From positions 1 to 64,000 of the forward strand of contig NZ_AJLE01000007.1 of the NCBI RefSeq assembly GCF_000296775.1: DNA of 64,000 bases, read 5' to 3'. Numbering within the stretch: position 1 is the first letter of the stretch; each line of letters opens with the position of its first letter. The position numbers were made by a program, and so were the translations under genes. The notes beneath the pieces were generated by a model. The model was not told the origin of the DNA. It saw only the letters and a program-made list of their open reading frames with translations, and did not search any database. Shown in pieces: positions 18,037 through 23,374 of this stretch. This DNA is from Sulfurovum sp. AR (GTDB taxonomy: Bacteria; Campylobacterota; Campylobacteria; Campylobacterales; Sulfurovaceae).

Positions 18037-20052
18037 TTAGAATTTATATTTTATATTTGTATAAAAATAACGTCCAGGCTCATTAAGAAGCATTACATCG
18101 CCACCACCTGCAGTAAGTAAAGTCAAATCTTTATAAGTGTTTGATACTGCATAAGTCTCATCAAATACATTGTCAATACCTACGGTAAGTTCAAAGTTTT
18201 TACCAAATTGTTTTGTTCCCTTTAGATTAAGTACGGCATACCCATCTAATTCTTGTTCACCATTGTCTGAATCAAAATCTGACCATTCATCAGATGCGAC
18301 TATTTCTGCTCTCAATGCCAAACTATCATCATAGTCATAGTTTACTGCCAAGTTAAGCTTAAATGGTGGGATCTCAGGCATATCTGTATCTGATTGTCCA
18401 CTTAGGGCATTTTCTTTTTCACCTCTTTGGTAAGACATTCCATAATCAAAGTAGAGTGCATCTGTTGCAACATATGTTCCACTTAAATCAAAACCATAGA
18501 TAGTCGCGTCTACATTTTCAAATGAATGCATCATGTTGTTTGCATTATAGGCAATAAAATCATCTAGTTTCGAATAGAATGCTTTTGCTTTGATCGTAGC
18601 ATTTTCATACTTCTTTTCAACACCTAGATCAAACTCATAATTAACGGTATTTTCCAAATCTGAGGTACCAACCATTGGGAAGGAAGGTGGCATACTCATC
18701 ATCATCATCTGAATAAAATACAACTCTCTTGCATCAGGTACTCTTGATGATTTACCAAATCCGGCAAAATATTGAGTACTTTCATTCGCTTGATACGTTC
18801 CAAATATATAACCATTAAGTTCATTATAGTCATTATCTGGCTGTTGTGTAGTATTAGGATTCTGAGAAGTGATCTTCGTATCATCATATCTTAGCCCAAT
18901 ATCTAGTGTCAATTTATCCATTTTAATCTCATCTTTAAGGAAAAATGCATAATTTTTAGTATCTACATCATCAATACTCTTTGTACCAGACCAAGACCCC
19001 ATTCCTATATATGCTCCATCCCAATTACGTATGCTATAGTCTAACCCTGCAGTAATAGTATGATTATCTACATCAAAACTGTTCTTAAGTTTTGCTCCCT
19101 GCATCTTCGTTGTAAGTGCATGTGTCGTTTCCATATTATTAGCAGAGTTTCTATATTTATTTGACATTGGATGATCCACTTCTGATTGAAAGAGTTTAAG
19201 GTTTAACTCTTTAGAATAAGTACCTAAATCCTTTGCAATATACTCGATATTATAAATATCTGAATCATCATAAAGGGCATCCATTCCAGAAGATGGGTAC
19301 AATACATCATCACTTCTATTTGCTGTATAGCTCAATCTTAACTCTTGATTATCTGTGATATCCCAGAAAAGTTTCGCCATAAATGTCTTTTTCGTATAAG
19401 CGTCCATATCCTTGTATGCTGGCTGATAACGTGTCATATTAGAAACTCCTGCCTCTTCCATCTGCTCTGCAAAATCGTTACCGTCACCATCTTCATACTG
19501 TTCACTTTTCTCAGTTGAACCAGAAAGTAAAACTCTTACATTGTCTGTGATACCCCCACTAAGTGAAAATGCACCTTTTTGGTAGCCCCAAGATCCTAAA
19601 CCTACGTTCAATTCACCTGCAAACTCTTCTTCTGGTTTCACTGTATGGATCTTTACATCTCCACTGAGTGAACCAAACTCTTCTACATTGAATGGACCTT
19701 CATTGATCTCAATATAATCTACATTGTTTGTCAATACATGAGAGACTGGCGGATCCATTCTGTTTGGACATGCACCATAGACTTTTGCGCCGTCTATTGT
19801 AATATTGATATTGTCTTTTTTCTGTCCTCTTAAGATAATATCATTTGCGACACCCGATCTTCTTACAAGTGAAACACTTGCTGACTGTTTAAAAAGTGCT
19901 TCTCCCAAATCGGCTGACTTAATGTCTTCTCCACTTACATCTTTAACCACTTCTGTATCTACTTTTGTGGCTACGTTTATCGATTCTAACTCAACTTCGG
20001 CAGCATTCAAACACACTGAACATACCAAAGAGAGGTAAATTCCCTTTTTCAT
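18037..20052 (-). CDS. TonB-dependent outer-membrane receptor, OprC/NosA copper type
   Basis: 671 residues: signal peptide about 1-18, plug domain about 30-140, then a 22-strand-type barrel ending in aromatic YKF. The plug has GACPNRMDPP, in which Cys95 and Met99 form the CxxxM element of OprC/NosA-like copper receptors. His294 and Met296 form a matching HxM (DHPM). A methionine cluster (Met449-454 and Met460) lies in a later barrel segment, possibly a further soft-metal site. The motif match is seen; copper as substrate is inferred from the family. The gene follows tonB, and a direct-repeat operator lies 41-58 bases before its ATG. GGAGAG is the ribosome-binding site. Confidence 0.88.
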   Translation of the reverse strand: MKKGIYLSLVCSVCLNAAEVELESINVATKVDTEVVKDVSGEDIKSADLGEALFKQSASVSLVRRSGVANDIILRGQKKDNINITIDGAKVYGACPNRMDPPVSHVLTNNVDYIEINEGPFNVEEFGSLSGDVKIHTVKPEEEFAGELNVGLGSWGYQKGAFSLSGGITDNVRVLLSGSTEKSEQYEDGDGNDFAEQMEEAGVSNMTRYQPAYKDMDAYTKKTFMAKLFWDITDNQELRLSYTANRSDDVLYPSSGMDALYDDSDIYNIEYIAKDLGTYSKELNLKLFQSEVDHPMSNKYRNSANNMETTHALTTKMQGAKLKNSFDVDNHTITAGLDYSIRNWDGAYIGMGSWSGTKSIDDVDTKNYAFFLKDEIKMDKLTLDIGLRYDDTKITSQNPNTTQQPDNDYNELNGYIFGTYQANESTQYFAGFGKSSRVPDARELYFIQMMMMSMPPSFPMVGTSDLENTVNYEFDLGVEKKYENATIKAKAFYSKLDDFIAYNANNMMHSFENVDATIYGFDLSGTYVATDALYFDYGMSYQRGEKENALSGQSDTDMPEIPPFKLNLAVNYDYDDSLALRAEIVASDEWSDFDSDNGEQELDGYAVLNLKGTKQFGKNFELTVGIDNVFDETYAVSNTYKDLTLLTAGGGDVMLLNEPGRYFYTNIKYKF

Positions 20053-20092
20053 ATAACTCTCCTCACTTAATTTGAGTTATGGTGTCATAGTT

Positions 20093-20110
20093 GTGTTAAT
20101 TAAGTGTTAA
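20093..20110 (-). promoter_or_regulatory. Direct-repeat operator, receptor copy
   Basis: Read on the minus strand: TTAACAC, spacer TTAA, TTAACAC. The two perfect 7-bp half-sites start 11 bp apart. It lies two bases after the tonB stop codon and 41-58 bases before the receptor ATG. A CATAAC hexamer 11 bases downstream may be the -10. It is one of four matching sites in this cluster. Confidence 0.7.
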
Positions 20111-20112
20111 AT

Positions 20113-20886
20113 CTATCTGATTTGATAGAGAAGTTTGATGGTAATACTTTTTGGTAGCGAAATAGGTGCATTTTTGGTATCTATAGGAAACGCACTTTTT
20201 ACAGCATTACGTGCAGAACTATGGAACACTTTAGGCCCGCTTACAGAGATATTTCCCACTTGTCCATTGCTCAAAATAGTAAATTCAATCTTGATCGTAC
20301 CCTGCATGCCTCTTCTTTGTGCAATACGTGGATATGATTTGTGCTTGTTTATTTTATCCCTGATACTTGCAAGAAATTGATTTTTCTGTGCAAGAGTGAT
20401 GTTTGCTCTTCGTGAAGAAGCTTTTTGTCTCCTCTGTTTTTTCTTGGCGATTTTCTTACTCGTTCTTGTCTTCGCTTTAGGTTTTGGTTTTTTCTTAACC
20501 TCTTTTACAACCGGTTTAGGTATTACTTTTTGCACTACAGGTTCATGCGTAGGTTCCTCTTTGACTTCAGGCTCCTCCTCAGGAACAAGTTCTTTAATGA
20601 TCTCAGGTTCAACAACAGGCTTTTCTTCGACAACAGGTTCTTCTTTAACGATAGGTTTCTCTATCACTTTTTCTTCTTTTATCTCCTCCTTTTCCACCTG
20701 TTCTACGGAAGCAACAGCTTCAGCTTGAAAAGAACATAAGCATAGCTGCGTCGTTTTCTCTTCTGTTTTTTGTGTTGAGACAAGATAACGATCTTCCATA
20801 TAAAAAAACAAACTTATCATGAAAAGGTATATAAGTGAAGTGCTAAAATAAGAGATAAAATGGCGATGTTTTAACATATTTAGCAT
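20113..20886 (-). CDS. TonB energy-transducing protein
   Basis: 257 residues with typical TonB architecture: a cytoplasmic start, one transmembrane helix (about 12-30), a long Glu/Lys/Val/Pro-rich periplasmic rod (about 65-150), and a C-terminal TonB domain (about 165-257) with SYPRIAQRRGMQGTIKIEF and the ILSNGQV segment. A CLC pair lies just after the membrane helix. No exbB or exbD is adjacent, so it must share a proton-motive motor encoded elsewhere. The ribosome-binding site is weak. Two direct-repeat operators lie upstream, and the receptor gene follows after 60 bases. Confidence 0.88.
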   Translation of the reverse strand: MLNMLKHRHFISYFSTSLIYLFMISLFFYMEDRYLVSTQKTEEKTTQLCLCSFQAEAVASVEQVEKEEIKEEKVIEKPIVKEEPVVEEKPVVEPEIIKELVPEEEPEVKEEPTHEPVVQKVIPKPVVKEVKKKPKPKAKTRTSKKIAKKKQRRQKASSRRANITLAQKNQFLASIRDKINKHKSYPRIAQRRGMQGTIKIEFTILSNGQVGNISVSGPKVFHSSARNAVKSAFPIDTKNAPISLPKSITIKLLYQIR

Positions 20887-20922
20887 AGAAGAGTCTTTTT
20901 TGGGATGTATTATGACGGAAAA

Positions 20923-20940
20923 ACGTTAAGGAAGTGTTAA
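20923..20940 (-). promoter_or_regulatory. Direct-repeat operator, proximal tonB copy
   Basis: Minus strand: TTAACAC, spacer TTCC, TTAACGT, with half-sites 11 bp apart; the second differs from consensus at two bases. A CATAAT -10-like hexamer follows after eight bases (20909-20914). The site is 37-54 bases before the tonB ATG. Confidence 0.6.
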
Positions 20941-21038
20941 AAAGAACAGAAGGAGTTTGTATGTAATGAGGGGGGTCATCCATACAAGACACCTTCTATG
21001 TTCCACTTATTTCGACGTAAAAGAATTATGACGAAGAA

Positions 21039-21056
21039 GTGTTAATTTAGTGTTAA
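21039..21056 (-). promoter_or_regulatory. Direct-repeat operator, distal tonB copy
   Basis: Minus strand: TTAACAC, spacer TAAA, TTAACAC, with perfect half-sites 11 bp apart, then eight bases and CATAAT (21025-21030). The spacing and the CGTCATAAT block match the proximal tonB promoter. A transcript starting here would have a leader of about 130 bases before tonB. Confidence 0.65.
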
Positions 21057-21075
21057 GCTAAATAAATATTTTGCA

Positions 21076-21789
21076 TTACTTTGTATTTGGATACTCAGGA
21101 TGACAATATTCAGTACCGAGTGAACAACATCCATCAGCAATACCTTGATTTTTCAGCCCTTTGTCAAATGACCAGTAATGGTTATAGCTACCATCGCGCA
21201 AGAAACTGAATACTGTAACAATATCTGTTGCATTTTCAGACTCTGCTAATGCAATATCTCGGTTCAAATCATTCACATCTACTACTTCAATAATACATCC
21301 AACTTTAAGCGCATCTATTTCTGATGGAGAACCCTGTGCAACAAGATTCTCATAGAGTGTTTGTATCGCTGAAATATCATAGGTTCCCGCATTCATCTCT
21401 TCTATGGGTGTGTTCATATATCCTAAAGGTTCCAAATCCACATTGGTAAAATTCACATCATCACTCAATTTATATTTTTGAATAAGCTCTTGTACCACAG
21501 CAATATGCTGATATTCTCCATTACTTGCAATTTTTGTAAACTGTTCTGTACCATATTGATCATACAAAGCATTGTAGACATCATATGCTAATCTTTCTTC
21601 ATTTCCCATATACGCAAGTGTATTAGTTAATTCTTGAGACAGTTTTGCAACAGGTGCATCAAGCGCAATTTCTACCTCAGTAGGTATTGAAGAGGATTCA
21701 ACCACACTGGAAGATCCACCACCACATCCCATGATACTCAACACTAGACCACCAACCAACACACTTTTGAATAAACTATTTTTTTTCAA
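21076..21789 (-). CDS. DUF2202 lipoprotein with ferritin-like domain
   Basis: 237 residues. A lipoprotein signal peptide ends at Cys22 (SIMGC), so the protein is predicted to be lipid-anchored outside the inner membrane. The DUF2202 domain (about 50-215) is helical with ferritin-like candidate metal ligands: Glu64/Glu65, Glu92 and His95 (EYQH), Glu168 and His204. The end is cysteine-rich (Cys221, Cys222, Cys229 followed by His230). The start is TTG, with AGGAG eight bases upstream and no in-frame ATG nearby. A direct-repeat operator lies 46-63 bases upstream. The family's function is not established; the link to metal handling is inferred from the ligands and the neighbours. Confidence 0.8.
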   Translation of the reverse strand: MKKNSLFKSVLVGGLVLSIMGCGGGSSSVVESSSIPTEVEIALDAPVAKLSQELTNTLAYMGNEERLAYDVYNALYDQYGTEQFTKIASNGEYQHIAVVQELIQKYKLSDDVNFTNVDLEPLGYMNTPIEEMNAGTYDISAIQTLYENLVAQGSPSEIDALKVGCIIEVVDVNDLNRDIALAESENATDIVTVFSFLRDGSYNHYWSFDKGLKNQGIADGCCSLGTEYCHPEYPNTK

Positions 21790-21834
21790 TGTACACTCTC
21801 CTTCTCTTTATATTTCTAATATCATAGTAGAGAA

Positions 21835-21852
21835 GTGTTAAGTAAGTGTGAA
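21835..21852 (-). promoter_or_regulatory. Direct-repeat operator, DUF2202 copy
   Basis: Minus strand: TTCACAC, spacer TTAC, TTAACAC, with half-sites 11 bp apart, then eight bases and TATGAT (21821-21826) as the likely -10. It is 46-63 bases before the TTG start of the DUF2202 gene. Confidence 0.65.
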
Positions 21853-21884: not shown

Positions 21885-22724
21885 TTAAGCGGTGTGAACT
21901 TTCTCCATGTTTAAACTCACCGTAGTACCAACACCTTTTTCCGACTTGAAATGGATCTCTATACCCTCTTCATCACAATATGCTTTAACCAACGCAAGTC
22001 CTATGCCTTCCCCGTCTTTTCTATCATCTGCCTGATAATAACGTTCATGCACACGTAAAAGTTCTGTACTTCCCATACCCACACCCTGATCTTCCACACT
22101 TAATATATGGTTATGCAGTGTCACATGTATCGGTGCATCCTTGGAAGAATACTTCATTGCATTGGAAACAATGTTGTCAAACATCTGTTCAAAACCTATT
22201 TTATCTACTTCTACCTCATACTGTTCCAGACTGAGTTCAAACGGATTCCGTCTCTGATCTTTGAATACTTCGATCCTATCTTCAATTAATGATTGAAGAT
22301 CAAAACGTTCTTTTTCTATCGTATGCATCTCTTTATGAATACTATAGACCAACTCATCATAGAGTTTTTTGAGTCTTACACTGGCATCTTCTATACGTTT
22401 GATACGCTTTAAGGATTTTTCATCTTCCATGGTTTTTTTTAACATGGATGTATTGGCTTTGATCGTAGAGAGCGGAATGTTAAGTTCATGAATAATATCA
22501 TTGGTAAGAGAAGTCAGCGTATCTTCCATCTGTTTTTTAGGTGCAAAAATAAGTGTAGAGAGCACATATCCCCATCCTATGGCTACGAGTAGAACCAAAG
22601 CACCTGCTATAAAAAAATTAATCTCAATGATATTCCAATTCCCTAAAAAACGATACACGGCAGTCAGCAGCGTGAACATAGTCACAAAGTAGATGACCGT
22701 ACCAACAATAATCTCTTTTCTCAT
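21885..22724 (-). CDS. Sensor histidine kinase
   Basis: 279 residues. Two transmembrane helices (about 6-26 and 34-58) are joined by only about eight residues, so there is no periplasmic sensor domain. The HisKA helix has His79 in NDIIHELNIPL. The ATPase domain has an N-box (FDNIVSNAMKYSS), G1 (DQGVGMG) and G2 (GEGIGLAL). It probably senses a signal within the membrane or through a partner protein. Its ATG overlaps the stop of the response regulator gene by four bases (ATGA), so the two are coupled. Confidence 0.92.
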   Translation of the reverse strand: MRKEIIVGTVIYFVTMFTLLTAVYRFLGNWNIIEINFFIAGALVLLVAIGWGYVLSTLIFAPKKQMEDTLTSLTNDIIHELNIPLSTIKANTSMLKKTMEDEKSLKRIKRIEDASVRLKKLYDELVYSIHKEMHTIEKERFDLQSLIEDRIEVFKDQRRNPFELSLEQYEVEVDKIGFEQMFDNIVSNAMKYSSKDAPIHVTLHNHILSVEDQGVGMGSTELLRVHERYYQADDRKDGEGIGLALVKAYCDEEGIEIHFKSEKGVGTTVSLNMEKVHTA

Positions 22725-23374
22725 TTAATGCTCATCTGGTACCCTACTCCGCGTACATTCTGTATCTGCGTAGGGAAATATTTTTTAAGTTGTGCGATAT
22801 AGACTCTCAAGGCACCATCACTGGCTTCCTCTGAAGCACTCCAAAGACGTTCTTTGATTTGATCTAAAGGGACCACGCGTCCCTGACCTTCTAACAAAGT
22901 GAGAAGAAGTTCACTTCCTTTCATACTCAACTCCAGTACCTGACCATTTTGATACAAAGTCTTTGTCAATATATCGAACTGATACGCTCCTATCTGTACG
23001 ATCTGACTGCGTACCTGTCTACGCAACACTGCCTGTATTCGCAGGAAAAGTTCATCCAGGTCGACAGGCTTCTGGATGTAATCATCTCCTCCTTTTTCAA
23101 ACCCCTCTTTGAGCGATGCTTTATCTTCTCTGGAGGTAATAAAGATACAAGGGGTTTCATCTCCGCTTTGACGTAATTTTTCTAAAAGTTCAAAACCATT
23201 TTCATACGGCAGATTGACATCAAAAAGATAGAGATCAAAAATATGCTCATAGGTGAGATCAAGTGCACTATAGGGATCTAGGGCACAGTGTAGAACATGT
23301 CCCTCTTCTTCCAAAAAGTCTTCCAGGGTTTCATTGAACAGTTTATCATCTTCTAATACCAGTATCCGTGCCAA
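22721..23374 (-). CDS. OmpR-family response regulator
   Basis: 217 residues. The receiver domain has acidic residues LEDD (7-10), the phosphoacceptor Asp52, Thr near 80 and Lys near 102 in QKPVDL. The C-terminal winged helix (about 125-217) has the OmpR/PhoB layout (SMKGSELLLTLLEGQGRVV, then LRVYIAQLKKYF and VRGVGYQM). The start is TTG with AGGA upstream. It heads the minus-strand cluster. Its DNA-binding type matches the 11-bp-periodic direct repeats found before three downstream genes, so it is the prime candidate for their regulator; this is inference. Confidence 0.93.
   Translation of the reverse strand: MARILVLEDDKLFNETLEDFLEEEGHVLHCALDPYSALDLTYEHIFDLYLFDVNLPYENGFELLEKLRQSGDETPCIFITSREDKASLKEGFEKGGDDYIQKPVDLDELFLRIQAVLRRQVRSQIVQIGAYQFDILTKTLYQNGQVLELSMKGSELLLTLLEGQGRVVPLDQIKERLWSASEEASDGALRVYIAQLKKYFPTQIQNVRGVGYQMSIK

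Follow-up and report, generated by a model that had tools for sequence, protein, structure and literature searches.

The OmpR-type response regulator encoded at 22721-23374 of the window (the whole stretch of DNA that was analysed, 64,000 nucleotides from Sulfurovum sp. AR) acts, in the reading that we hold to be probable, on PhoB-like operators that govern a copper-acquisition regulon, with a probable damping of copper enzymes. The regulon is genome-wide and class-wide, and its common theme is copper. Through this class-wide promoter signal, a single two-component sensor very probably induces copper uptake and tunes copper enzymes, including the one that destroys the greenhouse gas N2O. In both statements, binding, the copper signal and the starvation direction are inferred, whereas the sites, their geometry and conservation, the gene content and the co-occurrence are observed. 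The operators, promoters and genes concerned are as follows.

18037..20052, minus strand: OprC/NosA-like TonB-dependent receptor with GACPNRMD (CxxxM copper motif); OprC 6fok, E 2e-25; best NCBIfam TIGR01778, below cutoff
20076..20081, minus strand: -10-like CATAAC of the receptor gene, 11-bp gap, departing from the 8-bp rule; from sequence
20093..20110, minus strand: operator TTAACAC-N4-TTAACAC before the receptor gene; motif scans
20113..20886, minus strand: TonB, regulon member; PF03544
20909..20914, minus strand: -10 element CATAAT of P2, 8-bp gap; from sequence
20923..20940, minus strand: operator TTAACAC-N4-TTAACGT, proximal promoter P2 of tonB; motif scans
20939..21016, minus strand: putative short RNA from P1, 5' GTCGAAATAA, with a terminator-like hairpin with C-rich loop and a U-run; fold z = -4.4
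21025..21030, minus strand: -10 element CATAAT of P1, 8-bp gap; from sequence
21039..21056, minus strand: operator TTAACAC-N4-TTAACAC, distal promoter P1 upstream of tonB; motif scans
21076..21789, minus strand: DUF2202 lipoprotein, regulon member; PF09968
21821..21826, minus strand: -10 element TATGAT, 8 bp past the DUF2202 operator; from sequence, spacing kept in 98/107 promoters
21835..21852, minus strand: operator TTCACAC-N4-TTAACAC before the DUF2202 gene; motif scans, orthologous site in a related species (L119)
21885..22724, minus strand: histidine kinase, two membrane helices and only a very short loop outside; PF00512 and PF02518, alignment A2
22721..23374, minus strand: OmpR-type response regulator, proposed binder; PF00072 and PF00486 above cutoffs, orthologues in 58/61 genus genomes

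The four direct repeats do exist, and they are far from what chance would produce. A preliminary description of this DNA had reported TTAACAC-N4-TTAACAC four times on the minus strand; all four sites exist, but the repeat is perfect in only two of them (21039-21056 and 20093-20110). The 11-bp period that it gave for every site was borne out by sequence inspection and by the scan, and its spacing of the -10 element also stands, at 8 bp three times (CATAAT, CATAAT and TATGAT) and 11 bp once (CATAAC). At the receptor gene, a third half-site (ATGACAC, 20082-20088) makes the operator a triple repeat extending over 20082-20110. A loose scan of the window with up to three mismatches returned 14 matches against 9 expected, a mild enrichment that does not discriminate. 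Scanned in strict degenerate form over the genome and its relatives, the motif held up: seven matches were found in the 2.1-Mb genome versus none for the reversed control, with four of the seven falling inside 1.8 kb, and 61 genus genomes yielded 130 sites versus 18 control matches.

Outside the window's cluster, the remaining three strict sites of the genome lie upstream of genes for a multihaem cytochrome-like lipoprotein, a second TonB receptor and a YkuD L,D-transpeptidase. Three additional sites with one mismatch, all intergenic and with a -10 element at 8-9 bp, precede exbB (with exbD adjoining), a DsbD_2-type gene and a DHH-type gene. The same genome also carries three copies of TTCACAC-N4-TTCACAC with TATACT at 8 bp (L017, L028 and L031, on C3, C9 and C10, each at 1501-1518), which precede genes, nearly identical to one another, that encode a secreted peptide of 47 aa (MKKLTAILLLTIGLASSAMAHHPAPVDQAG...); these sites resemble a TTCAC-N6-TTCAC box and may be under a different regulator.

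Beyond the genus, TTAACAC-N4-TTAACAY was present in 25 of 150 class genomes, each at least 90% complete, from families f1, f6, f7, f8, f10 and f11, and the heavily sampled families f2 and f3 had none apart from one match within a coding frame (G195). In the fetched DNA, 127 of 129 distinct sites are intergenic and 107 have a same-strand start codon within 200 bp, the mode being 41-47 bp. Many of the sites precede TonB receptor or TonB genes, and the DUF2202 site recurs in a related species (L119). The 107 promoters share an extended -10 element, TGnYATAAT, with its hexamer at operator positions 27-32 (A 93%, T 92%). At a gap of 8 bp the key A and T positions of the hexamer are matched in 98 of the 107, versus no more than 40 at any other gap. 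No conserved element other than the operator and the extended -10, and no separate -35, was found in the aligned promoters. Tandem half-sites that repeat every 11 bp where the -35 would be, together with a -10 element at fixed distance, thus fit the definition of a PhoB-like promoter; judged from sequence, the layout is that of a direct-repeat activator whose site takes the place of the -35, with activation and binding of a phosphorylated regulator being only inferred.

The protein at 22721-23374 qualifies as an OmpR/PhoB-type regulator, having a receiver domain, a winged-helix Trans_reg_C domain and an invariant D52, and an orthologue at least 59% identical to it occurs in 58 of 61 genus genomes. 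Across the class, a close relative of the regulator (E about 1e-50 or better) and the site occur together in 22 genomes, the regulator alone in 14, the site alone in two and neither in 111 (Fisher p = 7e-15). Of the two genomes with the site only, G104 has a diverged pair of response regulator and histidine kinase of the same short-loop type (L233), and in G195 the site is the one located within a coding frame. The order regulator-kinase-exbB recurs in other families of the class, where the operator was found between the kinase gene and exbB (L208, L212, L245), in three genomes immediately ahead of the gene for the regulator itself (L207, L217, L248) and between the regulator and an adjoining NosL gene (L206); in G118, the regulator adjoins nosZ and the nosZ neighbours (L248). 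In the regulator tree, sequences group by family, but those linked to operators are not recovered as a single clade, and orthology therefore rests on gene order as well. The strict motif is absent from 14 of the 36 class genomes with the regulator, and in G040 (93% complete) the site is present with no regulator detected. A scan of named genomes, limited by its peptide patterns, gave few close relatives and no operator near the regulators at those loci.

That the operator is bound instead by a different regulator, for example the second OmpR-type regulator (~40% identical) encoded near the orthologue, appears highly improbable. Such a paralogue does lie a few kb from the orthologue in several genus genomes (among them L136, L137, L139, L140 and L172), and 5 of 56 paralogues also have a site within 10 kb, versus 27 of 58 orthologues. 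In other families, the sites stand at the orthologue's regulator-kinase-exbB operons and before its own gene, with no second regulator in the stretches read. Additionally, recognition-helix residues G187, R190, V191, Y192 and K197 are invariant in an alignment of 16 diverse orthologues, and the GxxRVY signature of this helix is missing from the paralogues. Assignment of the window repeats as operators of the 22721-23374 regulator is consequently supported by co-occurrence, proximity, gene order and the own-gene sites, and remains an inference because no binding data exist; expression data are likewise lacking. The earlier proposal that this regulator activates a local regulon therefore survives in its choice of regulator but not in its scope, since sites occur elsewhere in the same genome and, within the class, in families other than its own.

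By inspection of alignment A2, the partner kinase has no obvious periplasmic copper-sensing domain of the CusRS type, and, being nearly without an outside loop, it probably senses in the membrane or via a partner protein. A cytosolic C250-D251 pair in its catalytic domain is invariant in all 15 relatives compared (alignment A2). The two helices, the short loop and this pair together indicate that the kinase is not a CusS-like periplasmic copper sensor.

The copper theme emerges from the genes behind the operators. The receptor's best PDB relative, and its closest solved one, is OprC (6fok), to which its GACPNRMD aligns with the CxxxM ligands of the plug (the first half of CxxxM-HxM) retained. 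Its best NCBIfam model is TIGR01778 (TonB-copper) at 190.7 bits over the full length; this is below the equivalog cutoff of 472.45, and the receptor is therefore described as OprC-like and not filed as a TIGR01778 equivalog. Gene clusters behind the sites comprise TonB receptors (40), TonB (21), NosL (11 + 2), ExbB (6) and DUF2202 (4), with PCuAC, HMA, MbnP, CcoN and others as single cases in relatives; NosL, PCuAC, HMA, NosZ, CcoN, MbnP and SCO1 all adjoin operators in relatives. DUF2202, YkuD and the multihaem cytochrome are regulon genes without a known copper role. OprC/NosA-type TonB receptors are a known route of copper uptake, and OprC is repressed at high copper (PMC7558416). The copper-type targets, the OprC-like receptor and the drop of OprC under high copper together lead us to read the regulon as one of copper acquisition, most likely turned on by copper scarcity, with both signal and direction inferred.

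Two other readings accept the operator and the regulator and differ in the signal. The first, a response to copper excess of the CusRS/CopRS/CrdRS kind in which the targets buffer copper, is improbable to us. The copper two-component systems named in a review all answer excess (PMC7558416), and in H. pylori CrdRS is connected with copper homeostasis and with resistance (PMC9449129). However, the genes under forward operators serve import and handling and do not fit an export or resistance system of the CusRS/CrdRS type: among the genes directly behind these operators, none was recognised as coding for a CopA-type ATPase, a Cus-type RND pump or a multicopper oxidase, the operator of the sole outer-membrane efflux protein found is reversed (L188), and TonB-driven copper import under excess would be harmful. 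In the second, judged quite improbable, copper genes form only one part of a regulon that answers to something else: haem, a complex of nickel or iron, or a signal of respiratory or redox nature. The TonB receptors match haem and siderophore families too, the targets include multihaem cytochromes, a bd-like protein and DUF4405, and nosZ was not detectable in the Sulfurovum sp. AR genome, so that denitrification is not the reason for the regulon there. Weighing against another ligand, the best solved relative of the receptor is OprC with the copper motif kept, and NosL, PCuAC, MbnP, HMA and NosZ recur across different families.

Under the copper-acquisition reading, a dimer of the phosphorylated regulator would occupy both 7-bp half-sites in a head-to-tail arrangement along a single face of the helix, as the 11-bp period would allow; the bound dimer would overlap the place of the -35 and recruit RNA polymerase to the extended -10 element 8 bp downstream. 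The genes switched on would supply the outer-membrane copper receptor, its TonB/ExbB energy supply and periplasmic copper handling (NosL, PCuAC and MbnP in relatives), and in the Sulfurovum sp. AR genome would also include DUF2202, the multihaem cytochrome, the second TonB receptor and the L,D-transpeptidase. In relatives, a reversed operator or one within the core promoter would probably dampen copper-consuming enzymes (nosZ, cytochrome oxidase).

This last step rests on the placement of the reversed sites. The nosZ operator points away from the gene in all 15 genomes having one (L163, L130, L036, L104, L111, L126, L182, L183 and others), and three layouts were distinguished by inspection. 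In the majority of genus members, it stands upstream of an FNR-like box (TTGAT-N4-ATCAA), at a distance of 4 bp, and this box is centred near -41.5 from TATAAT; in G034, G035 and G038 the operator takes up the whole 17-bp spacer between TTGACA and TAACAT of a promoter; and in two f8 genomes it is located between TATAAT and the ribosome-binding site. The second and third layouts are repressor positions and the first is ambiguous. Additionally, the operator abuts TATAAT at a cbb3 ccoN gene (L114) and is reversed at a second ccoN (L197) and at a SCO1-oxidase cluster (L192). These placements suggest that the same regulator lowers copper-consuming enzymes ('copper sparing'); they come from few lineages and are not proof. 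A fuller proposal, which we offer tentatively and with more doubt than belief, is a phosphorelay copper economy switch in which one regulator acts through one operator and the orientation and position of that operator set the outcome, with TonB import going up, clade II nosZ and the cbb3 and aa3-type oxidases going down, and a small terminator-ended RNA with a C-rich loop added in a subclade. If true, bacteria relevant to N2O removal would possess a copper equivalent of Fur/RyhB-style iron sparing.

OmpR-type direct-repeat operators and copper two-component systems are both already known kinds. In pho promoters, the pho box consists of 7-bp direct repeats with a 4-bp spacer and a -10 element about 10 bp away. 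The window operators share its 7-bp half-sites, AT-rich 4-bp spacer, 11-bp period, replaced -35 and fixed-distance -10, but differ in the TTAACAC half-site, the 8 bp to an extended -10, the copper-type genes and the short-loop kinase. The box of Campylobacter jejuni DccRS, TTCAC-N6-TTCAC, has the same 11-bp period. DccRS is likewise an OmpR-type regulator system of periplasmic and membrane protein genes in Campylobacterota (PMC9449129), whereas its half-site sequence and target genes differ from those found here. CusRS, CopRS/PcoRS and CrdRS also pair an OmpR-type regulator with a membrane kinase to control copper genes. Unlike them, the window kinase has no periplasmic sensor domain, and the window system would activate import genes, whereas CusRS and PcoRS answer copper excess (PMC7558416), as does CrdRS to judge by the title of Waidner 2005, cited in PMC9449129. 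OprC of Pseudomonas aeruginosa is under CueR (PMC7558416), whereas the window receptor stands under a two-component operator whose binding is inferred.

Searches for TTAACAC as a response-regulator operator returned only unrelated papers, and those joining nosZ, TonB, copper and two-component systems, or DUF2202 and copper, returned nothing on such a regulon. No acquisition-type copper regulon with such an operator was found in the literature searched, from which most subscription journals were excluded. So far as the sources show, Gram-negative copper two-component systems answer excess, and a conserved acquisition system would fill a gap. In Campylobacterota with clade II nosZ, it would also tie N2O reductase expression to copper supply in a way that can be tested, and the operator would serve as a DNA signature from which DUF2202 and further unnamed proteins could be given a function.

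In a subclade, the distal of the two tonB operators seems to drive a short terminator-ended RNA, which would lie between both promoters and be about 55-80 nt long. Its predicted start, GUCGAAAUAA, lies at window position 21016, and GTCGAAATAA recurs at this point in 13 of 78 genus genomes (15 matches to the pattern versus 0 in the control); where it is kept, the hairpin varies in sequence and length. The putative RNA matched no Rfam family. Two roles are conceivable, that of a small RNA responsive to copper and that of an attenuated tonB leader, neither of which has been shown. A perfect operator with a good -10 element in G104 (L176/L243) has no same-strand gene called downstream and possibly serves another short RNA. 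In L005 and L118, the 5' leader of the multihaem cytochrome gene contains a G-run, AGGGGG, which could pair with the C-rich loop of the same genome's short RNA.
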